Below, one piece after another: positions 4,341-21,654 of a stretch of DNA of 21,654 nt. The notes under the pieces are model-generated. The model had not been told where the DNA came from, ran no database searches, and worked only from the letters and a program-made list of their open reading frames with translations. The translations under genes were made by a program, and so were the position numbers. The stretch's first letter is position 1; each line of letters begins with the position of its first letter. The stretch is from a virus. The stretch is taken from the IMG/VR virus record IMGVR_UViG_3300046330_000238, positions 1 to 21,654 of that record. One strand, written 5' to 3'.

Positions 4341-5738
4341 TTATCTAAGTCTTTTGGCTAATTCGTCAGCCTTTGTAAAGTATTCATAAGAAGTTTTCTT
4401 ATAATCTTTACGTTGCGCATATAAGTCACTTAATATCTTTCTAAGGATAGAATCTTCGGTCTTATATACTACTCCATTATCACATACAATTACGTTCTTG
4501 TCTTTACGTCTTTCATCAATTTCACTTTTATAAATCTTTTCAATATAAGCGTCGGGTGATATATTAAACTGACGCATGATTGAAGGATATAGTGAAGCAA
4601 AGTCAAATGCACTTACTCCTTCATAGAATCCTAAAATTGGTTCTTTTACAAATGCTCCAGCATATTGGCCATCTTTTTGACCATCTGCTTTTTCTTCACT
4701 TCCAATTCTCATTCCCTGCTCTGCGAGTTTTCTGGCCATAATAGCTTCAGTAACTGCCACTGGAGAACTTGCCTTATAAAGTGGCATGTTTGTAATATTT
4801 GCAAGTGTTAGTAATACTTCCATTGATTTTAATTTCTGATCAATATAATAAACTAGCACTGAATCGACTACGTTATAATAAATGTATTTAACAAAATTAT
4901 CTCGATATAAATCTTGAAGAGACCCTGTAAATTTAATCTTGTTAACATTAAGTACTTGACTAGAAACATAATCAAGAGAATTTGATTCTTTTACCTTAAC
5001 TGAACGATCGTATTTATCATACAATTGCATATAATCTAGAATTCCAATATGTAATGGACGACCATCTGTATTATCAACAGATCCTGTCATTCCAACTTCG
5101 CTAATATTGATTTGAAGTCTTTTACAACGATTAACAATATATTGCCAGTCATAGTTAATAAAATTCCATCCAGTCATCATTGGAAACTTAGGTAAGAATT
5201 TCATTAAGAATGTATTTACCATGTCATACTCTGATTTAAACTTATGGTACTTAAATTCCCAATCCATATCAAAATCTTTGAAGTATTCATTAGTATCATC
5301 TTGAATCTTTTGAATTTTATCTGAAGCCATATCTTCAAGACCTAAAACGATTGCTTTACGGTCTGGTGTAATAATTGAGAATGAAAGGATTCTACTTTTA
5401 GCCTCTTCAGCTTTTGGAAATCCATCAACAATCTCAGTTTCAATATCGACGAAATAAGTTTTCGGCATATTGTAAGCTGTTAAGTCAGCTTTATCTTTCT
5501 CAGAAAGGCTATCTAAGAAATATAGGATCGAAAACTTGTTGAATTGTCTTCCATATCCTAATTTGACCGAACGGCCGTCCCAGTTTTTATACTCTGGACT
5601 GGCCGCTCTGTCTTTGTCATCACAAACATACCAGTTTTGGAACTTGTCCACTGGATATTGTTTGAATGCTACTTCTCCTTTTTCATTGTAGTATGAAATG
5701 ATTACATCTTTTTCACGCTGTTCGATGTCAAGTATCAT
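4341..5738 (-). CDS. Family B DNA polymerase, N-terminal half (exonuclease plus motif A), T4 gp43-like
   Basis: This 465-residue protein aligns by eye with the first half of T4 gp43. Exo I is YFVDIE (Asp98, Glu100), Exo II is WNFINYDWQYI at 191-201, Exo III is YNVVD at 288-292, followed by YAGAFVKEP at 359-366 and polymerase motif A, DFASLYPSI, at 379-387. The frame then stops about 80 residues after motif A, within a lysine-rich helix like the start of the fingers. Motif B, motif C (DTD) and the thumb are missing; T4 gp43 is about 900 residues. The next gene, nrdB, follows after only 32 bases, so the other half is not adjacent. The exonuclease is intact, so this is probably one subunit of a polymerase split between motifs A and B; a truncated pseudogene is less likely because the frame is clean. 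The ATG directly follows the dUTPase stop (TAAATG). Confidence 0.9.
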   Translation of the reverse strand: MILDIEQREKDVIISYYNEKGEVAFKQYPVDKFQNWYVCDDKDRAASPEYKNWDGRSVKLGYGRQFNKFSILYFLDSLSEKDKADLTAYNMPKTYFVDIETEIVDGFPKAEEAKSRILSFSIITPDRKAIVLGLEDMASDKIQKIQDDTNEYFKDFDMDWEFKYHKFKSEYDMVNTFLMKFLPKFPMMTGWNFINYDWQYIVNRCKRLQINISEVGMTGSVDNTDGRPLHIGILDYMQLYDKYDRSVKVKESNSLDYVSSQVLNVNKIKFTGSLQDLYRDNFVKYIYYNVVDSVLVYYIDQKLKSMEVLLTLANITNMPLYKASSPVAVTEAIMARKLAEQGMRIGSEEKADGQKDGQYAGAFVKEPILGFYEGVSAFDFASLYPSIMRQFNISPDAYIEKIYKSEIDERRKDKNVIVCDNGVVYKTEDSILRKILSDLYAQRKDYKKTSYEYFTKADELAKRLR

Positions 5739-6230: not shown

Positions 6231-7280
6231 TTAAAAAAGAGCGTTTTGTTCAAAATTATTATTAAAAAAATATTCCATTAGATTCTCGTCTACCCTGGCT
6301 ACTTTTCTTCGGCTAATTAAATGTGGATTGCTTCTCAATCGGTAATAAACTCCATACTGGCAAAGGCCAACCTCACATCCATAAGTTTTAAGTTCATCTT
6401 GCTCATGTCTAAAAATCTTTTTACCATCAACTACAATATTGTGGGTAGATTCATGTAATGGAATTTCTCCAATAAGTTCTTTATAATTTTCTCGGAACCA
6501 AATAACTCTATCACCGTGTGGTACTGTACAATCTGAACCAAATATTAAATCTAATGTAAATCTGGCTCCAGGGCCTGGTACACAATATCTTTCGTCATGG
6601 TCTATATTGATTCTTGGATTTACAGAGTTCGATGTTGAACAGTGATATCCGTAGTAAGACCCTACACCCTCGATTTCTGTTAGTATATTAAACATTTCAG
6701 ATAAAGAGTTAACCTGGGCCATCCTTCCTGTGATTCCTCGAGGTATAAAGCTAGCAACCCATAGTAAAATATTAATCTTATGAGCATCTCTTGGTTGGTT
6801 TCTTAGTTCTGCGACATAATTATTGGCAGCTCCAAATAAACTAGTACGTAATTCTGTTGATCCATATATTGGTAGTCCTAAAGAAACAGCATCTTCTAAA
6901 TTCTTACGAATCTTATTTTCATATTCTCGATCAACTAATAATCTTTCAAAATCTATTAGCGCTGTTTTTGGATTTGGATCTCTTGTAAGTACTTGGTGAA
7001 TACCTCGGGCTCCATAGAAGTGAGAGATGATTGTGTTGCATATAATATTATCCATCGACATTGGTGCATTGACAATGTTCTCCATGATATATCTCATACG
7101 ATCATCCAACGTAATTTGTGGATGGAAATATTCAACAGTTTCGCCAAGTGCTTCATCGCCTCCGCTATCGTAACTTTCAAGAACTCCCATATTGTAAAGG
7201 GCTCTTTCATTAACTTTATTAAAGAATCTTCCGACGTCTTTAATAATGTCCATGTTTGCAATTTCTGCTAAGTTTTCCAT
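6231..7280 (-). CDS. HhH-fold protein like thymine-hypermodification pyrophosphorylases / 5-hmdU kinase helical domain
   Basis: A 349-residue protein without recognisable transmembrane or signal segments. Its best clue is a helix-hairpin-helix-like core, IEGVGSYYGYH at residues 203-213, followed about 25 residues later by VPGPGARFTLDLIFG at 234-248. This pairing (G[IV]G-x-[FY] helix, then GPGA) is characteristic of the glycosylase-like helical proteins found with phage thymine hypermodification, the alpha-glutamyl/putrescinyl-thymine pyrophosphorylase clades and the helical part of 5-hydroxymethyl-dU DNA kinases. Known relatives act after replication on hydroxymethyluracil in DNA. It sits between dUTPase and a methyltransferase in a replication operon, which fits such a role. 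The assignment is from motif memory only; a general unknown phage protein remains possible. Confidence 0.5.
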   Translation of the reverse strand: MENLAEIANMDIIKDVGRFFNKVNERALYNMGVLESYDSGGDEALGETVEYFHPQITLDDRMRYIMENIVNAPMSMDNIICNTIISHFYGARGIHQVLTRDPNPKTALIDFERLLVDREYENKIRKNLEDAVSLGLPIYGSTELRTSLFGAANNYVAELRNQPRDAHKINILLWVASFIPRGITGRMAQVNSLSEMFNILTEIEGVGSYYGYHCSTSNSVNPRINIDHDERYCVPGPGARFTLDLIFGSDCTVPHGDRVIWFRENYKELIGEIPLHESTHNIVVDGKKIFRHEQDELKTYGCEVGLCQYGVYYRLRSNPHLISRRKVARVDENLMEYFFNNNFEQNALF

Positions 7281-7287
7281 TTATGTT

Positions 7288-7965
7288 TTATTTTTTAAAC
7301 CAGCAATCGTATCCTCCAATATGTTTGAATACTTCAAAGCTATTAACTTGATTTTTTGGGTATAATCCTGTTAATAAGTCAATTGTTGGTTGTGCAAATT
7401 GTTTTACTTTACCCATGTGTAATTCTATAAATAGAACGTCAGGATAATATTGGGCAATATCTTGAATTATGTCATACTCAGCACCTTCAACATCGACTTT
7501 AATAATATCTGGTTTGTAAGTTTCTAAGAGTTCTTTGATGTGAATATTTCTAACTTCGTCATATTCATTAAATGAACTTCTTTTGATAATTGAGGTTGAA
7601 CAATGTGAACCTCCGGAATTTCCTTTATAGATTTTAATAGTTTTATCTTCACATCCAGAAACTGCAGCATGCATAATGTTTGCCTTTGGTTCGTTTGCAA
7701 AACTATTTTGTAGCTTTTCAAAATTTCTTGTATCACATTCTACTGTGTATACTGCTGACGCTCCGCCGTCAATTGCAATTTTAGTAAAACCGCCAACATT
7801 ACCTCCAAGATCTAGGCATACTTTACCAGTATAATCAACATCTTCATGTATATAATGACGAAGACAATCTTTAATCATGTCTCTATCAACTCTTTCAGTA
7901 GCATCTAAATATTTACAGTATTCTCGTTTTAATTTATTTAATTGCTTTTGTTCTACTGTCCACAT
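7288..7965 (-). CDS. FkbM-family SAM-dependent methyltransferase
   Basis: This 225-residue protein shows a Rossmann methyltransferase core: motif I LDLGGNVGGF at residues 51-60 (SAM-binding glycines), acidic VECD at 75-78 after strand 2, and the FkbM signature IIKVDVEGAEYDII at 154-167. FkbM enzymes usually O-methylate sugars or other small molecules; the target here is unknown. It starts 2 bases after the HAD-like gene ends and stops 7 bases before the helical base-modification-like gene starts, so it is tightly coupled to both. Possible targets are a glycan, an inositol product of the nearby synthase, or a modified nucleotide. I cannot choose among them from sequence. Confidence 0.85.
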   Translation of the reverse strand: MWTVEQKQLNKLKREYCKYLDATERVDRDMIKDCLRHYIHEDVDYTGKVCLDLGGNVGGFTKIAIDGGASAVYTVECDTRNFEKLQNSFANEPKANIMHAAVSGCEDKTIKIYKGNSGGSHCSTSIIKRSSFNEYDEVRNIHIKELLETYKPDIIKVDVEGAEYDIIQDIAQYYPDVLFIELHMGKVKQFAQPTIDLLTGLYPKNQVNSFEVFKHIGGYDCWFKK

Positions 7966-8430: not shown

Positions 8431-9624
8431 TTAAAGAGCCTTAGTTGTAGCAACTAATTGTTTTCTAGTAGAATCTGTTAAGCGTCTTGCAGCTAATTCA
8501 GTACACTCATAAACAGCATCCGAGAACATCATCTGATCTGGTGGAGTTTTTTGTGTAAACGCTGAAGGACCTCTTAATGCTCCTACAACTCCTAATTCTC
8601 TCGCTACTTTTAAGTAACGGATTGCGTCGATTACAACTCCTGCAGAGTTTGGTGAATCTTGTACGCTTAATTGAGCATCAAAAAGAACTGGCGCTCCTCC
8701 AAATCCTTCAAGTTCTAAACGGAAGTTAGCAACTTTGTTATCTCCATAGAATGAGATATACTCAGAAGGACCTGCATGTAAAAATGAATCTTCAGTTGAG
8801 ATTCCTCTAATTTCATTTTGAGCACGGATAACGTTTTCTTTTGAAATCTTTTTAGAAGCTAAACGTGATTTATCTTCCATGTTTAAGAAATCGGTGTTAC
8901 CTCCAACATTTCTTTGGATGTGCGCTTTTACATGGTGACCTCTTTCAAAAGCCAATTCTTGCAACATTTGAGATAAAATACTTGCTCCAAATTGAGAACG
9001 CATATCATCTCCAATAATTGGAATTCCAGCATCAATGAATCTTTGCTCCCATGCAGGATCAGATGCAATAAATACAGGAATACAGTTTACGAAAGAAATT
9101 CCAGTTTCTAGGCAGATTTCAGCCCAAAATTCTGTAGTTTTTTGAGAACCTACTGGTAAATAGTTTACCAATACTTCTACCTCATGCTCTTTTAATTTAG
9201 CAATGATTTGGTCTTTCCACTCTCTTGCTTTTCTGCTAGTCCAATCTGTACGATTTTTATCAGTTGAGTTTCTTAACTTCTCATCAACTAAAAATCTGTT
9301 TGATTCTGGATAATTATCCATCAATGCAGCGTAACCATCGATTACTGGTGCTTCGTAAACTGGCGCTGTAGAAGTAATAACATCAACGATGTCGTACGCA
9401 CAGTTTGGTTTTTGTTTTAATGCAACTCCAAGAGTTTGATTAACTTTACGTTCGTCAATCTCGAATGCACATGTAAATTCAATATTTTCAGCTTTGTAAC
9501 CTCCAATATCTGATTTCATCATTCCGGTAATGTTGTTCGTATTTTCTGTGTAGAACTGAACTCCTTCAACCAATGATTTTGCACAATTTCCTGTGCCAAT
9601 AATTCCAACTTTAATTTTGTTCAT
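8431..9624 (-). CDS. ino1: myo-Inositol-1-phosphate synthase (bacterial/archaeal type)
   Basis: A 397-residue NAD-dependent enzyme that converts glucose 6-phosphate to 1D-myo-inositol 3-phosphate. The N-terminus VGIIGTGNCAKSL (6-18) is the dinucleotide-binding loop, and the family blocks VNYLPVGSQ, GDDMRSQFGA, QRNVGGNTDFLN, EGFGGAP and DAIRYLKVA are all readable, with full family length and no gap. Lysines expected in the active site lie in the DDMRSQ/NTDFLN and C-terminal regions. The start fits an A-rich leader. It follows the SGNH-like gene after about 50 bases of AT-rich DNA and is the last gene before a terminator. Some Bacteroidota make inositol lipids with this type of enzyme, so host acquisition is plausible (inference). 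It is an unusual phage metabolic gene. Confidence 0.93.
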   Translation of the reverse strand: MNKIKVGIIGTGNCAKSLVEGVQFYTENTNNITGMMKSDIGGYKAENIEFTCAFEIDERKVNQTLGVALKQKPNCAYDIVDVITSTAPVYEAPVIDGYAALMDNYPESNRFLVDEKLRNSTDKNRTDWTSRKAREWKDQIIAKLKEHEVEVLVNYLPVGSQKTTEFWAEICLETGISFVNCIPVFIASDPAWEQRFIDAGIPIIGDDMRSQFGASILSQMLQELAFERGHHVKAHIQRNVGGNTDFLNMEDKSRLASKKISKENVIRAQNEIRGISTEDSFLHAGPSEYISFYGDNKVANFRLELEGFGGAPVLFDAQLSVQDSPNSAGVVIDAIRYLKVARELGVVGALRGPSAFTQKTPPDQMMFSDAVYECTELAARRLTDSTRKQLVATTKAL

Positions 9625-11742: not shown

Positions 11743-12108
11743 TTATTTAATAATTATGAATGAACCTCCTCTAGAAGATGCAGATTCAGTTTTACCATCT
11801 GATAAAGTTACTTTAGATACTGCTTCTCCACCTAGTGTTTGAGCAACATCTTCTGCAACTTGAGTTAATTCAAAAAATACAATGCTACCTGCAGAATCTG
11901 CTAATATTTTATATCCATCTCCTTCAACTACATTTGGTTTTTTAACAATCTTGTTAATAGTGCTATCAACCTTTTTAGCTGTCATATTAATAATGAAAAC
12001 ATCATTACGGCTTTTATATGCCTTTGGACTTTGTCCATTTTCAATTGGTTCGAATACGTTATGATCAGATTCGTTAACGAATTGTTCAAATAATTTAATA
12101 TGTTTCAT
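11743..12108 (-). CDS. Capsid-targeting-like tagged protein, 121 residues
   Basis: Function not recognised. The N-terminus MKHIKLFEQFVNES has the [FY]-x-[EQ]-[FY]-[ILV]-x-E tag found in several proteins of this window and resembles the T4 internal-protein start (MKTYQEFIAE), so cleavage after VNE at residue 13 by a prohead protease is a reasonable guess. The remainder alternates short strands and turns (DVFIINMTAKKV, YKILADSAGSIVFFEL) and ends in a Gly/Ser-rich stretch before SFIIIK. No membrane segment. It follows the TROVE/vWA gene by 26 bases and precedes the candidate RNA. It may be a small packaged protein, or a partner of the TROVE protein. Confidence 0.65.
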   Translation of the reverse strand: MKHIKLFEQFVNESDHNVFEPIENGQSPKAYKSRNDVFIINMTAKKVDSTINKIVKKPNVVEGDGYKILADSAGSIVFFELTQVAEDVAQTLGGEAVSKVTLSDGKTESASSRGGSFIIIK

Positions 12109-12134
12109 ATTAATTTTGTTTTCTTTTATATATC

Positions 12135-13562
12135 TTAAACAATTGGAGAGTATCTCTCACTCATGATTGTTTTATCCATGATTTGCTGCGGAGATTCAAT
12201 ATCTCCTCCAAGTAAGCTTGTCATAATTGCTGGAGAGAATCCTGAAATTAATGCAGTTCCTGCTGTATCAAATGCAACTGGTACTCCACCATTTCTGGAT
12301 TGAATGTTCCAATAAACAATTTGAGGCATTTTGTAACCTGAAGACTCATACATGTCGTTAATTACTTGCTGAGCTGTTGGGTTCCATGACGCTTGATTTC
12401 TCCAACCACTAGATCTGGTTGCCGCATTAAACTCCATATCTGATAGGATTAGGATTTTATTTGGCATCTCATCTTGAGACAATTTATGCTTAGTGGCCTG
12501 ATCTAAGATCAGCTTGAAAGTTGCCTCAAGATCTGTAGACATTCCCCAATCGGAGTTTGACATCTGTGTGTAGCGATCTTTCAATGAACCACTTAATACT
12601 TGTAACTGCGGAGTACTTGAGAATGTTATAAATGCATCTTTAAAAGGACCTTCATTTCTTTCAGAAATATAAAGACCTAAAGAGATTGCAACATCCATAC
12701 ATGTTACTGATTTACTACCGCCTGCTGAGCAGGACATAGAACCTGAAACATCCACCACTGGTAAAATCATATCGTTTGCTCCTTCTAAATAATTTGGAAG
12801 GGCTTTCCATTGTTCGTTTGCTACTGTAGCATTTCCATATTCTAATGATTTTGTAACATCATAAGGATAAACTGCACCTGCATTAATTGTAGCCTCTCCT
12901 TTTACAAGGGAAGCAATATAAGCTGAATAACTTTCATATGCATTTTTACCAAATGCTTTTTGGTATCTTGCAGAAGCAACTGATGGTAATTTACCGAATT
13001 CAATAGAATCCCATTCTTTAGCACACATTTTAGTTTCAACTACATTAGTCAAATTAACTAAAGTTTTACGGTATTGTTTTGGAGATAAATCCATGAATTT
13101 ACGTAAATTTTCAGCATTTTGACCCTTACGTGGCATCCATTTTGCACATAAACCATTTTCTGCTTTAATAGCATTTTCAATTATAATTAATGCATCATTT
13201 TCTAAATAAGTTCCAAAAAGAGATAATAAGTCATCAAAACGACCATACTCTGGAATTAAGTGTAAATTTGGTTTTAGGACCAAATCATGATTTTCAGCTA
13301 AATAAACTAAAATGTCTTTAAAGACTTGACGCTCTCCGGCTCCACCGCGAACATCTCTAGCCCAAAACAAAAGTTTCATAGCACGCTTAGGATCTTCGTT
13401 AAATGCTTTTGAAAAGGTTGCGATCAAACGTTGTTTGTCTTGGCCTCTCATAGCACCAATGTTAAAGAAAAGGTCAACACAGGCATTCAACGAGGTTGAA
13501 TTAGTCGCCATTCCATTTTCTGTTACGATGTCTTCTTGTCTTAATGCGTCTACGAATTTCAT
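12135..13562 (-). CDS. TROVE-like / vWA-domain protein (DUF2828 family)
   Basis: A 475-residue protein with the two-part layout of Ro60-like proteins. Residues 16-260 form a helical-repeat region opening with TENGMATNSTSLNACVDL and KLLFWARDVRGGAGER at 63-78, typical of DUF2828. Residues 264-430 form a von Willebrand A domain with a complete MIDAS metal site: DVSGSMS at 271-277, the MSTDLEATF threonine (Thr343) and LSDMEF with Asp375. Ro60/TROVE proteins bind structured noncoding RNAs through the helical ring; for DUF2828 members RNA binding is inferred from homology. Just 400 bases downstream lies a candidate structured RNA. A VTEN sequence near residue 13 resembles the prohead cleavage sites of neighbours, but the full tag is absent. 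Spacing suggests an operon with the 83- and 121-residue genes. Confidence 0.85.
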   Translation of the reverse strand: MKFVDALRQEDIVTENGMATNSTSLNACVDLFFNIGAMRGQDKQRLIATFSKAFNEDPKRAMKLLFWARDVRGGAGERQVFKDILVYLAENHDLVLKPNLHLIPEYGRFDDLLSLFGTYLENDALIIIENAIKAENGLCAKWMPRKGQNAENLRKFMDLSPKQYRKTLVNLTNVVETKMCAKEWDSIEFGKLPSVASARYQKAFGKNAYESYSAYIASLVKGEATINAGAVYPYDVTKSLEYGNATVANEQWKALPNYLEGANDMILPVVDVSGSMSCSAGGSKSVTCMDVAISLGLYISERNEGPFKDAFITFSSTPQLQVLSGSLKDRYTQMSNSDWGMSTDLEATFKLILDQATKHKLSQDEMPNKILILSDMEFNAATRSSGWRNQASWNPTAQQVINDMYESSGYKMPQIVYWNIQSRNGGVPVAFDTAGTALISGFSPAIMTSLLGGDIESPQQIMDKTIMSERYSPIV

Positions 13563-13595
13563 TTTGATTATTTTTAAGTTCTTAACTTATACTAA

Positions 13596-13847
13596 TTACT
13601 TTGAGTTTGTTTCAAAAAAACTTTGTTTTTTTAAATCTATTTTTAGCCAAAAAAGTCTTATTACTGATTCTAAATCCTCTTCTATAATGTCATCTTCAAG
13701 AGCCGTAATAATAATAAAGTTATCAACCATTTTTTTAGATACTTCTACTTGCTCGACATTAATACAAGAATTGATTGTTTTTTCTATTTTATTAATAGCT
13801 GATTTTGCCCAATCTTTATAATTTTCTGGTCGAAATATGTAGTTCAT
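13596..13847 (-). CDS. Hypothetical protein, 83 residues
   Basis: Not recognised. A small, charged helical protein with a DWAKSAINKIEKTINS helix and a central FIIITALEDDIIEEDLES segment, ending in a basic KIDLKKQSFF stretch. No membrane segment or metal motif is seen. It lies between a terminator and the TROVE/vWA gene, 33 bases before the latter, so it is probably the first gene of that transcript. Its short frame lowers confidence, though it is clean and in register with the operon. Confidence 0.55.
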   Translation of the reverse strand: MNYIFRPENYKDWAKSAINKIEKTINSCINVEQVEVSKKMVDNFIIITALEDDIIEEDLESVIRLFWLKIDLKKQSFFETNSK

Positions 13848-13908
13848 ATTATGATTATTTTAAAGTTGAGTATTATATAAGACTTTCTAAAAAAGTTTAT
13901 AGACACAA

Positions 13909-13934
13909 AAAGACCCTGAAAAATCAGGGTCTTT
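13909..13934 (-). terminator. Rho-independent terminator closing the core-protein block
   Basis: A perfect 11-bp stem (AAAGACCCTGA at 13909-13919, TCAGGGTCTTT at 13924-13934) with a 4-base loop, the strongest in the window. On the minus strand it runs into TTTTTG. It lies 38 bases past the stop of the DUF3008-like gene and separates the tagged-protein block from the TROVE block. Confidence 0.9.
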
Positions 13935-13971
13935 AAATCCATATTAATGGTATAATTCGATGATACTCAAA

Positions 13972-14538
13972 TTATTTACTATCTTTATTAGTATATTGTT
14001 CGAAAGTTTTGAATTTTTTACGGTTTGTCAAATAATCCTTACGTTCTTTTTTTCTTTTTAAATGTTCTTCTTCAGCATCACCAGCTCCTGATAAAACATC
14101 ACCAGATCCTGGTTGAGTTGCTGTTGGTAATAATGTAGCTCCAATACCTCCAATATTTGCTGCAGAAATACCCTCTTCAAGTTCATGAAAATTATCATTT
14201 GCTTGTTTTAAGTATTCGTACGCTGAAGTGATGTGTGCTTGAATCCATCCTGGTAAGTTCTTTTCAACTTGACCAATTTTTCCTAATAGTTCATCAGTTG
14301 CTTTTTTAATTGCTTCTATCTGACCCATTGCCATTCCAACTTCATGGTCTTCTCCTTCTTTAACGTGATCTGGAAGTCCTTTATGTTCAGTACTTGCAAA
14401 ATCCTTAAGTTGTTGAAGCGTCATAGAATCTGCAAGATCTTTTACTTCTTGGCTTGCATCCTTAGGGTCCATATCTCCTTTTTTAAGAGAGTACGCCATA
14501 CCCATTAATCTTTGTTGTGCTTTACTAGTACTTGGCAT
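13972..14538 (-). CDS. DUF3008-like phage protein with C-terminal FEQY tag
   Basis: A 188-residue protein. Residues 1-60 match the DUF3008 pattern: SKAQQRLMGMAYSLKKG, then KDLADSMTLQQLKDFAST and HKGLPDHV. Residues 90-125 contain LPGWIQAHITSAYEYLKQA, like the W-x-x-x-I-x-x-A-x-x-[YD] segment of small phage structural proteins. A Gly/Ser-rich linker (130-155) leads to a basic tail, and the protein ends KTFEQYTNKDSK, a degenerate C-terminal copy of the tag; the 624-residue protein two genes upstream ends similarly (TFEQFINKDI). Function unknown; a minor virion or prohead-core component is plausible. It starts 2 bases after its upstream neighbour ends. Confidence 0.65.
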   Translation of the reverse strand: MPSTSKAQQRLMGMAYSLKKGDMDPKDASQEVKDLADSMTLQQLKDFASTEHKGLPDHVKEGEDHEVGMAMGQIEAIKKATDELLGKIGQVEKNLPGWIQAHITSAYEYLKQANDNFHELEEGISAANIGGIGATLLPTATQPGSGDVLSGAGDAEEEHLKRKKERKDYLTNRKKFKTFEQYTNKDSK

Positions 14539-14540
14539 AA

Positions 14541-15077
14541 TTATTTTGCGTCTATTTGCATAACCTCTGAACCAGAGATTTCAACATTGTTTTCTCCAAT
14601 TTCAGCATCAAATGATCCATGAATATCTTCTCCACCTGCTAATGTAGTATTTTGCATACCTCCAAGTTTTTTAGAAAACTTACCAGCATCAGTGTCATCC
14701 ATAAATCCTACACTAATTACAAAATCTTTAGGAAGTGAAATATAAAGAGATCCTCCTGTATTATTTAAACTATTACGAGTATCTGCTTCCCATTGTTGAT
14801 TTAATCCAGAAACATGAACATAAGCAACCTGTTCCATGTCTTTAACTGCTTTTTGAACTTCATCTAAAATGATTTTAACTCCATCTGTATGGAAACCTTT
14901 CCATGCTCCATTAATTTCTTCTAAAATAGAAACAGAGTCTCCTCCAAATGCAATTTTTTCAATTTCTTTTTTAAACGATTGCATAACCTTTCCAATGATT
15001 CCTTTAGCAGCGTATGGACCAGATAATCTATATGCTTTTTCTGTTAGGAATTCTTCGTATAATTTGATACGTTTCAT
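14541..15077 (-). CDS. Capsid-targeting-like tagged protein, 178 residues
   Basis: I place the start at the ATG at 15077, because the protein then opens with the tag MKRIKLYEEFLTEKAY and leaves a 14-base gap, whereas the ATG at 15098 would overlap the upstream gene and put seven residues before the tag. After the tag (cleavage predicted after LTE at residue 13) the protein is a mixed alpha/beta domain of unknown function. Its C-terminal third reads SLYISLPKDFVISVGFMDD, a strand-rich segment, then an acidic tail ending SGSEVMQIDAK. There is no recognisable enzyme motif. Position beside other tagged proteins suggests a small internal or prohead-core protein. Confidence 0.7.
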   Translation of the reverse strand: MKRIKLYEEFLTEKAYRLSGPYAAKGIIGKVMQSFKKEIEKIAFGGDSVSILEEINGAWKGFHTDGVKIILDEVQKAVKDMEQVAYVHVSGLNQQWEADTRNSLNNTGGSLYISLPKDFVISVGFMDDTDAGKFSKKLGGMQNTTLAGGEDIHGSFDAEIGENNVEISGSEVMQIDAK

Positions 15078-15091
15078 AGTTTTTTTATTTT

Positions 15092-17383
15092 TTACCAACC
15101 GTAACTTTTAGTTTCGATTTTCTTAGTATAATCACTAATGTTTTTTGCGTATTGTGTTAATTCACGTTCGTAATAATTAGTGTCGTATCCTGCTGCTTTT
15201 TCTTTTTCATCACTAGCAACAGCCTGTACATATCTATTATATTCATCTAAGATGTTTCTCATTAAATTAGAAGCATCTCCTATTTTAACTTCTTTTCCTC
15301 TTGGATCTAATCCAATTAGCATATCGCCATATTTTCCTTTTTCTCCTTTAGTTAAAGCATCTTTGATTTGATTTGATAATGCATCAATTGCATCTAAAAC
15401 TACCTGGTCAATTGGCATTGCAGCTGCTTTTTTAGCTAAGATTGCGTTGTATCTTGCTTTATTTTCATCTTTAAATGCTCTAGGATCCATTATTGCAGTT
15501 GCTCCTTTTCTTGCAGCTTCTCTGTCTGCTTTTAATGAAGCTGTTGAATATCTTGCATCAAGAACTGTTAAGTCTAAACAATATGCTCTATCAGCTAAAT
15601 CAACTACTTGTTTCAAACTTGAAATACCGGTACCATATTGATCGTTAGCACTTGATTTATTGATTCCAGCAGAATCATCTCTTTTAGTTTTTACTAAAGT
15701 TCTACCAGTTGCTTGTCTACTGTGCTTGCTCCATTCTGTATTCATCCATTCGTTAGAACCGTCTGTTATTGCTAATAATGTATTTGCTGGAACAGATTTT
15801 GAGTTGTATGAGTTTTTACCAGCATATGGATTTTCTTTTTCATTTGTTGTAAAGTAAAAATAAACAGCTCTTGCTCTTTTCTCTTTCTTTGCCTGATCTG
15901 GCGTCATTTCAAGAATATCAATGTCTTGAATTTTATCAAGTGCTAATTTAGCCATATTGTAAAAAGCCTGTGGAAGATCTTTTGGCATTGCATATGCTCC
16001 CATTAATAAACTTGCAAGTTTTGCTGATGCAAAAGCCTCGTTTAATGTACCTTCATTTAATTTATTCTCAACGAATTCTGAGAATGATTCATAAATAAAT
16101 TTTGTTTTCATATCTTTTGTGTTTTTGTTTTCATCTAAATCTACCATCCATCCGTATTCAACGTATGCAATAGCATCTTCTGGTTTTACGTCCCATTTTT
16201 CTGCTGCGTCCAATACTATTTTTCTAGTAATTTTTGAATTTGGATATTTTGACATTGCTTTATCAAAACCACCAGGTACCCAAATTTTTGGAGCCTTTTC
16301 AGTTGCTTCTGAAACCATTACATTTTTAAGGATCGCTTTTCCAGACTTAGATAAACTAATTCCATCTTCAGATACATTAAAGTGTCTAGAATTTCTTTTT
16401 AACCATCTTTTAGAATCTGATGTCATCTCTTTTAATAAGTTATCAAACTCTTCTTGAGAAATCTTACCATCTTTGATCGCTTCTAAAACTTTATTTCTAA
16501 TTTTAGCTGCTTTACCAACTACAACTGCTGGATGATTTTCAGTATATTGTCTTTTTATCGTAATGTTTCTTTCGTTAACTACAGATTCTGCAGCCATTCC
16601 ATAACAATCTGTGAATTCATCGATGTCAAACCCATAATGATCTACTAGATCAACAATTTCGTCAGGGAAATCCATCTCATCATTTCTCATTGATTTTCTA
16701 AGACCAGTTACTTTGTCATAATTTGTATAAACAAAGTCAGCTAAGTCATAACACGATGGTTTATCTCCCGCCATGTCTACTAGTTTATCTAGGGATAATG
16801 CTTTAGCTTCAGTTACTACTGATTCATTAAGACCCCATTTTTTCATTTGTTCTTGACCTTTTTTGTCTAATTCAGTCATATCAAAATCTAAAATTTCATC
16901 TCTACCATCAAAATCATAAGAAATATCTTTTGCATTTAAGTAGTTTAATATTTGTTTAAGGTCTTCTCTTGAAATTCCACTCACATCATATTCTTCATTA
17001 GTTATTCTAGATTCGTCTAATTCTTCTGAATTTTCATCATGCGCATCTAAAAATGATTCATCTAACTTTTTAATGTTTTTGATAATTGTATCTACTGAAT
17101 CATTCCATTTACCATAGATTGGTGGATTTTTCATACCAACCCCCATAGCGTCGTTTGAAACGTCTCCATTAGAATTGATTGAATAAGAACCACCATCAAA
17201 TTCTTCTCCGGCAAAATCTAAGTCAAAAGAATCCTCTTCTAATGTTCTTGTATTTACTGTACATTTTTCACCATGTATTTTTGCAATTGCCTTTGCATAA
17301 GTTTCAGCAACTTTTTTAGTGTCTTCAATAGACAATCCCATCGGTTTGAAACTGCCTTCATTTAAGAATTGGTTGAAATTCAT
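15092..17383 (-). CDS. Large modular prohead-core-like protein with repeated cleavage-type motifs
   Basis: A 763-residue protein with no enzyme motif. It begins MNFNQFLNEG, a short tag. Acidic helical modules are punctuated by similar motifs: ESVVTE then A at 187-193, ESVVNE then R at 266-272, VMVSE then A at 355-360, and FSEFVENKLNE then G at 434-445 followed by TLNE then A. The last is preceded by MKTKFIYES, so residues 425-444 look exactly like a tag-bearing N-terminus lying inside the chain, as if two tagged genes had fused. T4 prohead protease gp21 cuts after [LI]-x-E, and these sites fit with V added, so processing into several pieces is predicted. Residues 455-763 form a basic, helical domain ending in YGW. 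Possible major core or internal protein; inference. Confidence 0.7.
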   Translation of the reverse strand: MNFNQFLNEGSFKPMGLSIEDTKKVAETYAKAIAKIHGEKCTVNTRTLEEDSFDLDFAGEEFDGGSYSINSNGDVSNDAMGVGMKNPPIYGKWNDSVDTIIKNIKKLDESFLDAHDENSEELDESRITNEEYDVSGISREDLKQILNYLNAKDISYDFDGRDEILDFDMTELDKKGQEQMKKWGLNESVVTEAKALSLDKLVDMAGDKPSCYDLADFVYTNYDKVTGLRKSMRNDEMDFPDEIVDLVDHYGFDIDEFTDCYGMAAESVVNERNITIKRQYTENHPAVVVGKAAKIRNKVLEAIKDGKISQEEFDNLLKEMTSDSKRWLKRNSRHFNVSEDGISLSKSGKAILKNVMVSEATEKAPKIWVPGGFDKAMSKYPNSKITRKIVLDAAEKWDVKPEDAIAYVEYGWMVDLDENKNTKDMKTKFIYESFSEFVENKLNEGTLNEAFASAKLASLLMGAYAMPKDLPQAFYNMAKLALDKIQDIDILEMTPDQAKKEKRARAVYFYFTTNEKENPYAGKNSYNSKSVPANTLLAITDGSNEWMNTEWSKHSRQATGRTLVKTKRDDSAGINKSSANDQYGTGISSLKQVVDLADRAYCLDLTVLDARYSTASLKADREAARKGATAIMDPRAFKDENKARYNAILAKKAAAMPIDQVVLDAIDALSNQIKDALTKGEKGKYGDMLIGLDPRGKEVKIGDASNLMRNILDEYNRYVQAVASDEKEKAAGYDTNYYERELTQYAKNISDYTKKIETKSYGW

Positions 17384-17405
17384 AATTTTTTATTTTATTT
17401 ATGTT

Positions 17406-19280
17406 TTATATATCTTTATTAATAAACTGCTCAAATGTCATTATTTCTGTTGAAACCGATTCAGCAACAACTCCCATTGAATCTTCAATTTTAGACTTTA
17501 ATTCATTATACATTCCATGAATTGCCTTTGGTGTTAAATTATTGAATTGTTTTTCATCATTTGCTAATAACGCGTTTCTAACTGCAGTTGCCGAAACGTC
17601 ATCATCTGTTCTTGGAATTTCAAAAAGTCCAAAATCAGCTCTTACGTTTAATTGATCTCTATAAGAATCATTATTAACTTGATAACCATAGCTTGCCATT
17701 CTATCGCTTCCAGTTCCCCAAAGTACTGGTTCGTAGTTTGGTCGTATTTCATTAAACATCGTATCGATTCCTCCAGTTGGAACAACAAATATTTCTTTTA
17801 AGAATGTGTATTGTTTTTTAACATTATTGAACATTTCAATTTGAGTGTTTTCATCATATGGTCTGCTAAATTCGTCTCCCTTCTTTTTGGTTTTTGATTT
17901 AACTAAAAATACAACTACTGGGTAACCATTCTCTTTATGAAGCGCTTCTAATACTTTAGCATGTCCTAATGTAAACGGTTGAAATCTACCAACAAACATA
18001 TTTACTGGTTGTTTTCCTTGTTCAGTGTGATTAACTTTAAGAGCCTCATTTAGGTCAACAGAAGCCTTAATTTTATTATGTAACATAAAGTTTTGATAAT
18101 CATAGATTGAATTCTCATCAGTATGTTCAACGAATATCTTTTCGCTGATTTTATCGATGATTTCATTCATACGTTTCATAGTATCTTCATCAATAAGATC
18201 TGTTGTTTTTGTTCTTTTCTTTCTAAAAGAACTTAAAATCATTTTAAAAAGCTCTGCTAAAACATCGTTTGCAACGAATTTTAAAGTCTTTTCATTTTTA
18301 ATGTATTTAGTATTTAATTTAAAAGATTCAGCAGAAGAAAATTCTGCACTTTCAAAGTTAACACCAATATATTTTGAAGAGTTTTTATCGATGTAGGAAT
18401 TAAAGATAACTGATAATGTTTCAAGATATCTGTAATCTGCATTTTCCTCTTCTAATTTAATATCGTCTAAATTATATTGTGCCAAATATTCTAAAACGTC
18501 AGTAACTGCAATTTGATACATGTGACTTGAACTTTGGTCTTCAGTATTGATTGTTCTATTAAAATCTTCAAGCTTAAATGAGTTCATGAATTTACCGTCA
18601 ATAAAATTAACAATAAGTCCATCGATTTCGCTCTCAAGATCAGCGTTCAATGATGATGTGCTAATACTTGGATTAAATAGTTTAAATATTTTGCTTGTAA
18701 AACTTGATTTGTCTTTAGTTTCTATTAAGTAATCGAAAGAATCAGAAAATTCTCGATCGCTCATTCCTAATAATTCAAGTAATTCATCTCTTTGTAATTG
18801 AGATAAATAGCCATCAAAAACAATATTTGGGGCTTGAACATTTAAGGTCTTTGACCATTTCTTTAAGATTTCTGGGTCATTAATTGTTTTTTTAACCTTA
18901 CCATTTTCTCCAATCTGTTGAATGTGCGTAAGTATTAAATTATTTGTTGGTGTATTTGTATAAGATATTTTGGATGCTCCAAGTTCTGGTAAATAATCAA
19001 AACCGAATCTCCAATCATCTGGCATTTCGTTTTTAATAGTGGTTGGTAAACTCTGCATATAATTGATTGCAATCTCATATAATGAAATGATTGTTCTGTC
19101 AACTAAATTTAATTTGTCAGAATTAGAAGATTTGTAGTATTCAAATCCATCTGATTTTCTTCTAACAAGAAATGTGGGAGCTGCAACTTTTTCAGTTACT
19201 AGCACCCTATTCTTTAACATATCAATAAAAGATTCTCTATTTGTTTCGTTAAAGTATTCTCTTAATTTTTGTAATGCCAT
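17406..19280 (-). CDS. Fusion of ligase-like nucleotidyltransferase and NMN-adenylyltransferase-like domains
   Basis: 624 residues. The C-terminal domain is a class I-fold nucleotidylyltransferase: VGRFQPFTLGHAKVL at 430-444 (the GRFQPxHxGH-type loop, with Thr-Leu-Gly-His), and ATAVRNAL at 564-571 (ISxTxxR-type loop). This matches NadR/NMNAT-like adenylyltransferases, though a related cytidylyltransferase is possible. The N-terminal domain shows KSDG at 42-45 (K-x-D-G nucleotidyltransferase motif I), RFGFDYLPEL at 91-100, EIDGLIVNF at 218-226 (motif IV) and SFKLEDF at 234-240 (motif V lysine), the pattern of DNA/RNA ligase superfamily enzymes. The chain ends ESVSTEIMTFEQFINKDI, a C-terminal tag. 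Its ATG shares one base with the preceding stop (TAATG). Substrates unproven; could be NAD metabolism or nucleic-acid repair. Confidence 0.75.
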   Translation of the reverse strand: MALQKLREYFNETNRESFIDMLKNRVLVTEKVAAPTFLVRRKSDGFEYYKSSNSDKLNLVDRTIISLYEIAINYMQSLPTTIKNEMPDDWRFGFDYLPELGASKISYTNTPTNNLILTHIQQIGENGKVKKTINDPEILKKWSKTLNVQAPNIVFDGYLSQLQRDELLELLGMSDREFSDSFDYLIETKDKSSFTSKIFKLFNPSISTSSLNADLESEIDGLIVNFIDGKFMNSFKLEDFNRTINTEDQSSSHMYQIAVTDVLEYLAQYNLDDIKLEEENADYRYLETLSVIFNSYIDKNSSKYIGVNFESAEFSSAESFKLNTKYIKNEKTLKFVANDVLAELFKMILSSFRKKRTKTTDLIDEDTMKRMNEIIDKISEKIFVEHTDENSIYDYQNFMLHNKIKASVDLNEALKVNHTEQGKQPVNMFVGRFQPFTLGHAKVLEALHKENGYPVVVFLVKSKTKKKGDEFSRPYDENTQIEMFNNVKKQYTFLKEIFVVPTGGIDTMFNEIRPNYEPVLWGTGSDRMASYGYQVNNDSYRDQLNVRADFGLFEIPRTDDDVSATAVRNALLANDEKQFNNLTPKAIHGMYNELKSKIEDSMGVVAESVSTEIMTFEQFINKDI

Positions 19281-20569
19281 TATCTTCCGTATTTTATAAT
19301 TCCCATTAGCTGATTTATCGCAGCAAACGTTCCTGTTAATTTGTACATGTGTCCTTTGTATGAAAATACAATACCTTCAGTCGGTATAATCGATTGAATT
19401 CCTCCGATTCTCTCTAGTCTATCAAGTTCTTTCGCAACTTTTTCAATTTGAGTAAGGTCTCCATTTAATTTAATTTTGTCAGCTTCTGTTCTGATTTCGG
19501 TATGCAATCTTTGCATTTCTTTATCTGGCGAAGCAGCAACAAAATTACTTGCATTCTTTAAGATAACACTACCCAATTCTAAGAAAAGATCTTCAAATGG
19601 TCTAATGTTTTCTTTGAATTTCTTTTTAGCGTCCTCTTTGTCAAACTTCTTAATTGCCTCTGCTTGTTCTTTAGTTAATTCTTTGTCTAATGAACGCATG
19701 TTTAATGTTTTCTTGTCATCATAAGCCCATCTTAGTAATAAACCTTCTTTAATATTCTGTGGAAGATCACCAAAGATAGATTCAATTTGCTCTCTCCACC
19801 ACATTTCATGGTATCTTGCAACAGAATCTGAATCTGTTAAATTATAACGATTTTTAAGAGCTTCAACCTTTCCAATAAACTTAGACTGATTCTCTTCAAA
19901 ATCCATATCCTTCTGTAATTTAATAACTTGTGGGGGAATAATTGTAAATGTGCTTCCAATATGAGCATTTAGGTCTTTTAATATACCTGCAACACTTTTA
20001 GCCGCACTATTATCGTCTCCAATAATATTTCCAGCACCATCAGTCTTTTTAACACCATGGAATTGAATTACATCAACATCATAGTGAATAACATTAGGAT
20101 TTGCAGAATATATCAACTCCATGTTCATAAAGTCTAGACCATTCTGGAACACTTCCTCTTGTGTTTTTGTCGGTAATTTTATAAGTAAATTTGCTAAATC
20201 TGCGGCTGCAAATTGAAAAGTATCTTGCACTAATTTGCTTGCATGCCCTTCAAATTTATTTTGGAAATCCTTAAGACTCATTGGGTTTTGCAATTCAGTT
20301 TTATTTCTGGCAAATTTAACTTCACCATTTTGAATAGTTGCAAAAACGTTTTGACCATCTGTTTTTTCAGTAGGTTCCTCTTCAAAGTTTAATTCTCCTT
20401 GAAGTCCACCTATAATCATGTTCTTAAAGTCACCAAATGTCAAATTATTATTATCGAATGGATGGGACATATGTCCTGCTGCTCCACCTTCTAATAATAA
20501 TTGCTCATTTAATTTTGGTTCGTACTTTTCAGTTATGAACTGATTAAAATTAAGGATTTTTGTTTTCAT
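19280..20569 (-). CDS. Tagged protein with DNA/RNA-ligase-superfamily motifs
   Basis: I place the start at the ATG at 20569 (429 residues), because a longer frame would begin inside the upstream terminator and this start brings the tag MKTKILNFNQFITEKYE to the N-terminus. GHMSHPF at 32-38 occurs in related T4-like marine phage proteins. Then come EKTDGQNVFAT at 68-78 (motif I, Lys69), FARN at 86-89, MELIY at 150-154 (motif III), a long helical insertion at about 190-390, EGIVFSY at 398-404 (motif IV) and YKLTG at 409-413 (motif V). The set fits a covalent nucleotidyltransferase of the ligase superfamily. Activity is inferred. FITE, KLNE and LLLE near residues 11-27 offer cleavage sites. It is coupled to the 624-residue gene by a TAATG overlap. 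Confidence 0.7.
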   Translation of the reverse strand: MKTKILNFNQFITEKYEPKLNEQLLLEGGAAGHMSHPFDNNNLTFGDFKNMIIGGLQGELNFEEEPTEKTDGQNVFATIQNGEVKFARNKTELQNPMSLKDFQNKFEGHASKLVQDTFQFAAADLANLLIKLPTKTQEEVFQNGLDFMNMELIYSANPNVIHYDVDVIQFHGVKKTDGAGNIIGDDNSAAKSVAGILKDLNAHIGSTFTIIPPQVIKLQKDMDFEENQSKFIGKVEALKNRYNLTDSDSVARYHEMWWREQIESIFGDLPQNIKEGLLLRWAYDDKKTLNMRSLDKELTKEQAEAIKKFDKEDAKKKFKENIRPFEDLFLELGSVILKNASNFVAASPDKEMQRLHTEIRTEADKIKLNGDLTQIEKVAKELDRLERIGGIQSIIPTEGIVFSYKGHMYKLTGTFAAINQLMGIIKYGR

Positions 20570-20634: not shown

Positions 20635-21654
20635 TTATGATTCTTGAGCAATCATTGCTTCAATAACATCAGATGAAATCCATCCCTTTGCTTTAACAAA
20701 TTCCTTTGCAAGTTTTAAGACTTTCTTTTCTCCATTTGGCGTAACTTCATTTTCTTCACCGTTTTCATTATTATCATTCCACTCTTCAACGCATGCTGAT
20801 ACTTCTTGTTGTACTTGCATACTGCCAGGATTTTCTATTTTTCCAGCAGCTTCATGATAATCTTCCCAGTATTTTGCATCAAATCCTTCATTTGTAACTG
20901 ATTCTCCTAAAGAGCTTGTTAACATTCCAACTGCAGCACCGTAATCTCCATCACATTTACCAAGAATTCCTTTAACTACTTCTTCCGCTTTAGTTTCGTC
21001 AAATTCCTCTTTAAAAGCATCTTTTAAAACAGTCATTGCATATTCTTTAAATTGATCATCCGACGTAATGTCTTCTTCATTGATTTCAGCTTCTGTAATT
21101 ACAGATTCTTTAATCCCTAATTCTTTTAATGATTTAACTTTTTTACCTGCAGATTCTTCATCATCTTCGTCAGCGTATGCTAATAAACCAGCTGCGATTA
21201 ATCTTTTGTAGATTTCTCCTTTAACTAATTCAAAATCAATTGAGTCACTTGAATTTTCCCAAGTATCTGCAACATATTCTGGATCAATCCAACCATATCC
21301 TGATTTAATGTTTTTAACCATGTCATTAAAATCAGCATCGAATTGTTTAACTGCTCCTTCGTAAACTGTTCCTAAAACCTCTTCTTTATCGTTAAATTTC
21401 TTAATAGATTTTTTAACAGTGTTTAATGCTTTAATAACTGTATCGATAACTCCAGCATCGATGTCATTTCCTGCTAAAGTTGAACCATATAAGTTAGCTA
21501 AATTTTGAGTTGCTGAATATAATTCGTTTCCAATAACATCCTTTGGTAATCTAAAGAATGCCTCAGAAACTGCTAGTTCAAGATCTTTGTCTTTATCGGC
21601 AATAACTTCTTCTAATTCGGCTTCTAAAGCTTTCTTTTGAGCTGTCATTTCTTT
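20635..21654 (-). CDS. Modular acidic core-like protein with ESV-x-x-E motifs (probably cut by the window edge)
   Basis: An ATG at 21648 gives 337 residues, but the frame stays open to the right edge, only 6 bases further, and the first residues (TAQKKALEAELEEV) look internal and lack the tag of neighbours, so the gene probably begins outside. No enzyme motif is seen. It is acidic and helical, with a coiled-coil-like start. Cleavage-type motifs divide it: AVSE then A at 26-30, ESVITE then A at 181-187, ESVTNE then G at 249-255 (numbered from 21648). These repeat the motif of the 763-residue protein, and the two may be paralogous modular proteins of the prohead core. It is followed by a terminator. 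Confidence 0.65.
   Translation of the reverse strand, partial: KEMTAQKKALEAELEEVIADKDKDLELAVSEAFFRLPKDVIGNELYSATQNLANLYGSTLAGNDIDAGVIDTVIKALNTVKKSIKKFNDKEEVLGTVYEGAVKQFDADFNDMVKNIKSGYGWIDPEYVADTWENSSDSIDFELVKGEIYKRLIAAGLLAYADEDDEESAGKKVKSLKELGIKESVITEAEINEEDITSDDQFKEYAMTVLKDAFKEEFDETKAEEVVKGILGKCDGDYGAAVGMLTSSLGESVTNEGFDAKYWEDYHEAAGKIENPGSMQVQQEVSACVEEWNDNNENGEENEVTPNGEKKVLKLAKEFVKAKGWISSDVIEAMIAQES

Follow-up and report, generated by a model that had tools for sequence, protein, structure and literature searches.

The window analysed here is a 21.6-kb viral fragment from IMG/VR (the whole stretch of 21,654 nucleotides, record IMGVR_UViG_3300046330_000238), every major gene of which lies on the minus strand. 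It encodes subunits of ribonucleotide reductase (RNR), a part of a family B DNA polymerase, proteins of nucleotide metabolism and a TROVE-type protein (DUF2828/DUF7788), along with a block of proteins of unknown function; several of its unrelated proteins begin with the same short peptide, hereafter called the tag. The sequence-only reading of the window had claimed five N-terminal copies of the motif [FY]-x-[EQ]-[FY]-[ILV]-x(1,2)-E and likened it to the signal that directs the internal proteins (IPs) of phage T4 into the head. All five copies are present at the proteins that had been named, each encoded on the minus strand. The 121-aa protein (gene 11743-12108), whose orthologues are all tagged, starts with MKHIKLFEQFVNE followed by S (12070-12108, predicted cut after E13), and the 178-aa protein (gene 14541-15077), with 16 tagged orthologues, starts with MKRIKLYEEFLTE followed by K (15039-15077, predicted cut after E13); the latter is counted from an ATG, the longest open reading frame (ORF) being of 185 aa from a TTG. 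The 763-aa protein (gene 15092-17383) carries a short version, MNFNQFLNE↓G (17357-17383; the arrow marks a predicted cut), the 429-aa protein (gene 19280-20569, for which a further upstream ATG would give 442 aa) begins with MKTKILNFNQFITE followed by K (20528-20569), and the 363-aa ATP-grasp-like protein (gene 456-1547) begins with MIPIKLFEEFVYKE (1506-1547). With the pattern accepted only at most 15 residues from an in-frame start, gene calls made by a simple longest-ORF scheme and the expectation taken from shuffles, 5 of the 21 window genes match against 0.025 predicted, far above chance. RNR, the polymerase, the inositol-phosphate synthase and the TROVE protein are among the genes without a tag.

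Related loci were collected in two scans (80 + 80), and the relatives include two near-complete genomes, G003 (236 kb, with an end repeat) and G006 (256 kb). The genome-wide search identified the tag in 21 of 292 genes of G003 (0.27 expected) and 19 of 322 genes of G006 (0.23 expected); the strict tag is also found in 13 of 221 genes of G009 and 3 of 165 genes of G012. The consensus, MK(H/K)(I/V)KLFEQF(V/I/L)NE↓(A/S/G), stands at a constant distance from the start, with one residue pattern per genome. The blastp comparison of the portions behind the tag, carried out for the tagged proteins of all loci, divided the 210 tagged proteins of the relatives into 73 clusters with unrelated bodies, which agrees with the earlier suggestion of a portable address; since orthologues inflate some counts, the number of clusters and the per-genome counts are the safer figures. 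Among the matches listed, the tag is also common in IMG/VR, as judged by a degenerate DNA pattern.

The residues of the tag remain constant while its synonymous codons differ (e.g. TTA/CTA for Leu6 and TTT/TTC for Phe7), and comparison of the DNA upstream of the tagged genes revealed no sharing; conservation thus concerns the peptide, and the tag is not a spreading DNA cassette. The idea of such a cassette, i.e. a promoter, start region and first codons that spread as a recombination or expression element, with the tag a by-product of gene shuffling that has no role at the protein level, would fit the occurrence of tagged genes in runs (193-200 kb in G006, 147-151 kb in G003). Yet it is already contradicted by the codons and the upstream DNA, and a start-region cassette could not account for copies of the motif at C-termini and inside polyproteins (see below); we regard it as extremely improbable.

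The first ten residues of T4 IPIII take the protein into the head; targeting depends on residues 4 and 7 and processing on residues 8 and 10, Asp at position 10 blocks processing and leaves targeting intact, the protease gp21 cleaves after L/I-X-E, and sequences resembling this capsid-targeting sequence (CTS) are known on various proteins (PMC9026906). The proposed likeness holds position for position: F7, F10, [VIL]11 and E13 of the tag match residues 4, 7, 8 and 10 of IPIII with the same spacing, the aromatic pair F7 and F10 standing at i, i+3 as residues 4 and 7 do. The identity of the aromatics is built into the search pattern; a pattern-free comparison of the N-termini of genes with unrelated bodies still finds the same cluster, and it recovers the tag clusters in G003, G006 and G009. 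Under the same scan, only IPII and IPIII match among T4 genes of at least 60 aa, plus the 54-aa gp61.1, and the known cut of gp23 after E65 reads FGSFLTE. The tag thus shares with the CTS of IPI, IPII and IPIII the character of a short N-terminal propeptide on unrelated proteins, the aromatics three apart and the [I/L/V]-x-E ending, while three relatives, near-complete or large, have about 13-21 strict tags in each genome versus 2 in T4 (genes of at least 60 aa, same scan).

The likeness extends to a gp21-family protease and T4-like head genes. The protease that a T4-like reading calls for was found as a gp21-family S77 protease in 11 of 13 relatives' records and also in G014, which by its TROVE protein (99% identical to that of the window) is the nearest relative and which carries a portal and tagged Tad3 and Acb1 as well. 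The S77 protease of the relatives is fused to an acidic coiled-coil scaffold and conserves H85, S140 and D168 of the T4 enzyme, the first two of which we take to be catalytic in the gp21 family. A gp23-type major capsid protein (MCP; PF07068) is encoded in 10 of 13 relatives and a gp20-type portal (PF07230) in 12 of 15. The order of these genes, portal - small tagged protein - protease/scaffold - MCP (gp23), resembles the T4 order 20-67-68-21-22-23. A 132-aa frame (G003:156418-156672, L175; also in G004 and G005) gave another match to this family, a partial one.

Evidence concerning cleavage comes from a comparison of the two ends of proteins, as copies at the C-terminus, missed by the sequence-only reading, occur in three families: a 624-aa nucleotidyltransferase-domain protein, a DUF3008 protein and a 151-aa protein. 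In the window, the 624-aa protein (gene 17406-19280, minus strand) ends in IMTFEQFINKDI directly before the stop codon (17409-17444), with the aromatic pair retained and the Glu lost, and the 188-aa DUF3008 protein (gene 13972-14538, minus strand) ends in KFKTFEQYTNKDSK (13975-14016), its copy likewise lacking the Glu and closing with FKTFEQYTNKDSK before the stop. With a pattern that does not demand Glu, this residue is present in 177 of 196 distinct N-terminal strings and in 1 of 37 distinct C-terminal ones; most of the latter belong to one orthologous family, so that 1/37 does not stand for 37 independent events, which weakens the contrast. A cut after the motif at the C-terminus would be pointless, and the retention of Glu at the N-terminus and not at the C-terminus lends independent support to the predicted processing. 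The C-terminal copies, because they keep the aromatic pair and lack the Glu, should target their proteins without being removed. A cut before the C-terminal tag of the 624-aa protein, at ESVSTE↓IMTFEQF, was considered and rejected: the site is not conserved in the family.

A second predicted site is found in many tagged proteins further inside the chain. In the 429-aa protein it reads LLLE27↓GGAAGHM (20489-20491, minus strand): within the family, neither the length nor the sequence of tag and spacer is constant, E27 is the first invariant residue, invariance starts with the Glu of [LIV]-x-E↓GGAAGHM, and this Glu precedes GG..GHM in 63 of 63 sequences. The homologue from the 462-kb huge phage LR756500 has a tag of its own, followed by LILE↓GGSYGHL. 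Similarly, G006 encodes a tagged Tad3 homologue of 259 aa; the solved untagged Tad3 (9b7d, 194 aa) aligns from its residue 5 with position 50 of this homologue, and the first residue of 9b7d falls on E46 of DSINE46↓GLVDK. Such sites exactly at natural N-termini, the retention of Glu in N-terminal but not C-terminal tags, the known role of the homologous T4 signal and the small tagged protein that separates portal and protease in the head operon all speak against the tag being an address elsewhere (the host membrane, a replication site or a phage compartment), with the Glu a part of the helix and not a cleavage site. Such an address would be compatible with the ability of a short amphipathic N-terminal helix to bind membranes too, and the cleavage is a prediction; we nevertheless consider it very unlikely.

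The Microcystis phage Mel-JY01 was rejected as a carrier of the tag: its homologue of the 429-aa protein follows a fused nucleotidyltransferase domain, with the junction at IIAE↓GG, and has no tag. As a separate observation, this fusion (PP395634.1, 11243-13162) joins a cytidylyltransferase-like domain to the 429-aa homologue, and in the window the ligase-like 429-aa protein has the 624-aa protein, with its cytidylyltransferase domain, as a neighbour (17406-20569). The invariant E68-K-T-D-G of the 429-aa protein fits ligase motif I, though this is no more than suggestive.

Repeats of ESV(V/I)[NT]E, not recorded by the sequence-only reading, occur inside the 763-aa and 337-aa proteins of the window. 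Judged by its composition, the former resembles a polyprotein, its shuffled modules set apart by ESVV[NT]E↓A separators: it was aligned with 20 homologues (alignment A1), of which those sharing its main modules range from 517 to 971 aa and differ by whole modules, the boundaries of which read ES(V/I/T)(V/T)(N/T)E with A, G or S as the next residue. Its internal sites are NESVVTE192↓A (16808-16810, minus strand) and AESVVNE271↓R (16571-16573, minus strand), and the module RNITIKRQYT behind the latter sits directly after the N-terminal tag in L103 and L112. Further on, MKTKFIYESFSEFVENKLNE444↓ (16052-16111, minus strand) and then TLNE449↓A precede the last module; the internal MKTKFIYESFSEFVENKLNE can be read as a tag that once stood at an N-terminus, and L052 has the module after MKTKFIYESFSEFVENKLNE, i.e. 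the last one of the 763-aa protein, as a separate tagged protein. The 337-aa protein (20635-21654, minus strand) is the C-terminal part of a second predicted polyprotein, the gene of which leaves the window; it is homologous to a 1029-aa, 8-site protein of G003 and possesses sites KESVITE↓A (codon 21091-21093) and GESVTNE↓G (codon 20887-20889), both on the minus strand. Altogether, 104 long proteins exhibit at least 2 ESV-type sites, with 238 distinct sites at a median spacing of 83 aa, and the residue after the predicted cut (P1') is A, G or S in 181 of the 238 (Ala in 133). In clusters 1, 8, 10, 23 and 57, the same module is found behind an N-terminal tag or behind an internal ESV(V/I)NE, depending on the phage. 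The AlphaFold model of the 763-aa protein places most predicted cuts in or beside low-confidence linkers.

Most cluster representatives of the tagged proteins show no Pfam match; those that do include Tad3, Acb1, an AAA_33/zeta-like kinase, GNAT and ATP-grasp. The Tad3 homologue was identified over the whole domain (PF25185, 8.5e-19; PDB 9b7d, E=2.6e-35, residues 5-190 of 194); of 5 records that have it, 4 carry it with a tag, G012 having an untagged one. The Acb1-like proteins match PF23474 (2e-7, 31.2 bits with a cut-off of 27) and contain both HxT motifs (HCT...HMT), their PDB match is weak (E=0.021), and 6 of 9 carry a strict and 3 of 9 a degenerate tag; T4 Acb1 (57B), used as a control, starts with MMEFKDF, which resembles the tag weakly. 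Close relatives of the window phage thus carry tagged homologues of an anti-Thoeris and an anti-CBASS protein, predicted to act as inhibitors, and counter-defence against nucleotide-signalling immunity may be delivered together with the DNA.

The presence of these recognisable enzymes and inhibitors (Tad3, Acb1-like, AAA_33 kinase, GNAT, ATP-grasp) argues against the tagged proteins being scaffold or core parts that are consumed, i.e. degraded and expelled at maturation like T4 gp67 and gp68, in which case targeting and cleavage would be kept and delivery would not. It would be in keeping with such a fate that the polyproteins would yield many small pieces, as T4 gp22, gp67 and gp68 do, and that most modules have no known function; however, the tagged families are not the same between close relatives, which is again the behaviour of T4 IPs, and we deem the consumed-core explanation unlikely.

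We consider it highly probable that the tag serves as a T4-type capsid-targeting sequence, removed by the protease, and we infer that the whole constitutes a greatly expanded variant of T4 capsid targeting, with packaging and cleavage; the interpretation offered by the sequence-only reading is supported to this extent, and its proposal that the proteins are packaged and injected would follow from it. During assembly of the scaffold core, F7 and F10 (F-x-x-F) of the N-terminal helix would dock the tagged protein on the core, and once the shell is complete, the scaffold-fused S77 prohead protease would cut behind the Glu of [V/I/L]-x-E and free the mature protein within the head. Many cargoes would be trimmed at a second [LIV]-x-E site further inside, and long ones would be cleaved as polyproteins at ESV(V/I)[NT]E↓(A/G/S) into modules of about 60-140 residues, while the C-terminal copies would provide targeting without removal. 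The freed proteins presumably leave with the DNA and act as infection starts.

Several points weigh against this interpretation. The protease and capsid genes were located in relatives, the window being a fragment that has none, and the tag of its ATP-grasp-like protein has one extra residue ahead of the Glu. Foldseek found no significant PDB match for the model of the 763-aa protein (mean pLDDT 63, with linkers predicted to be disordered) and no significant match for that of the 429-aa protein (pLDDT 69, top PDB matches T4 RNA ligases 1 and 2 with E=0.2). The Y-x-E-Y-V-A-E of the scaffold resembles the tag and may hint at a docking partner, yet such internal matches are not above chance; the tag as a copy of the coiled-coil repeat (YSEHVAE / YAEYVAE) was rejected, with about 1 profile match per scaffold and internal matches overall at or below shuffles. 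Finally, all of the evidence comes from sequence, and presence in the virion is deduced from it.

The host of the clade is likely to belong to Bacteroidota, as had been proposed, because Shine-Dalgarno sites are missing (they precede 0-2% of the genes of relatives versus 22% in T4) and the nearest named MCP relatives come from Prevotella Lak phages and Tenacibaculum phages; a scan of GTDB genomes for relatives gave no match. The host is probably a Flavobacteriia-like bacterium of aquatic habitats. In the Tenacibaculum phages PTm1 and pT24, the tag DNA pattern matched at no N-terminus of interest, and the pattern-free comparison found no shared cluster in PTm1 or in T4. Other phages exhibit shared N-termini of a different kind, typically finishing in [IL]-x-E. 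About 19 genes of LR756500, several of them adjacent, start with MKYIKEYEDFLNE, i.e. MKYI(K/L)EYEEFLLE/LNE (LR756500.1, 312960-318055 and elsewhere, loci L408-L419). G011, a gp23/S77 phage outside the clade (IMG/VR 3300042319_002138, loci L377-L390), has M(N/R)x(I/L)(R/K)KI(I/L)KE(E/S) in 17 genes against 0.2 expected (MNIRKIIKEE / MRNLIKKILKES; e.g. 25003-25527, 30297-31335 and 186479-188283), and one of the 17 lies between protease and gp23 together with a gene that has a longer related form, MKKVIKLNEADLEKLVQKIIREE. In the Prevotella phage Lak-B1 (MK250020, loci L420-L439, e.g. 37373-42696; TAG read as Gln), starts like LYESIMKSVSKTVKKKLNE form a 15-gene cluster that some members join by chance, MNKxIKxLxESLFDD stands on unrelated bodies, and adjoining genes begin with MKVQVRRSVFETNSSSTHS. 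These observations suggest lineage-specific 'dialects', and their N-termini may be functionally equivalent to the tag of the clade.

Unlike the T4 system, the clade has C-terminal copies, second internal sites, modular polyproteins, a scaffold-fused protease and predicted Tad3 and Acb1-like cargo, the solved proteins homologous to which (Tad3, 9b7d; Acb1, 7t26 and T4 57B) have no tag. DarA and DarB of phage P1 and T4 IPI* are counter-defence proteins packaged in the head and delivered with the DNA, where they act against restriction; the predicted targets in the clade differ in including Thoeris and CBASS, and delivery would proceed via a common tag. T4 IPI is counted among the head-delivered anti-restriction proteins (PMC9026906). 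In the giant phages phiKZ, 201phi2-1 and SPN3US, many head proteins are cut C-terminal to Glu and then ejected (PMC9026906, PMC5694885), but their propeptides are mostly long (>100 residues), with no single short portable tag. Our search of the open-access literature retrieved no account of tags at such a scale, of tag dialects, of the polyproteins or of tagged Tad3 or Acb1.

Other genes of the window deserve brief mention. The family B DNA polymerase (4341-5738) is 465 aa long, breaks off near the beginning of the polymerase domain and appears to be split. The protein encoded at 6231-7280 contains the helical domain of 5-hydroxymethyl-dU DNA kinase, which suggests hypermodified thymidine in the DNA of this phage. 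A myo-inositol-1-phosphate synthase-type protein (8431-9624) and an FkbM methyltransferase (7288-7965) form a metabolic block.

For large T4-like Bacteroidota phages in general, we see the evidence as evenly balanced on whether lineage-specific address dialects serve to load the head in advance with a large arsenal that changes rapidly (per genome, about 10-20 proteins or more, some of them in the form of polyproteins cut by the protease) and includes Thoeris and CBASS inhibitors, so that counter-defence precedes phage gene expression. With a sequence rule of this kind, the virion cargo can be predicted for each gene of an uncultured phage, a task that otherwise calls for an isolate and mass spectrometry, and the portable tag could become a delivery tool for Bacteroidota. 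The N- and C-terminal copies offer a natural dissection of the targeting signal from the cleavage signal, and polyprotein processing is suggested as a means to load many small proteins. The pre-packaging of inhibitors against signalling-based immunity becomes a testable question, and many new proteins of unknown function gain a predicted site of action: they would be injected and would act in the first minutes of infection.

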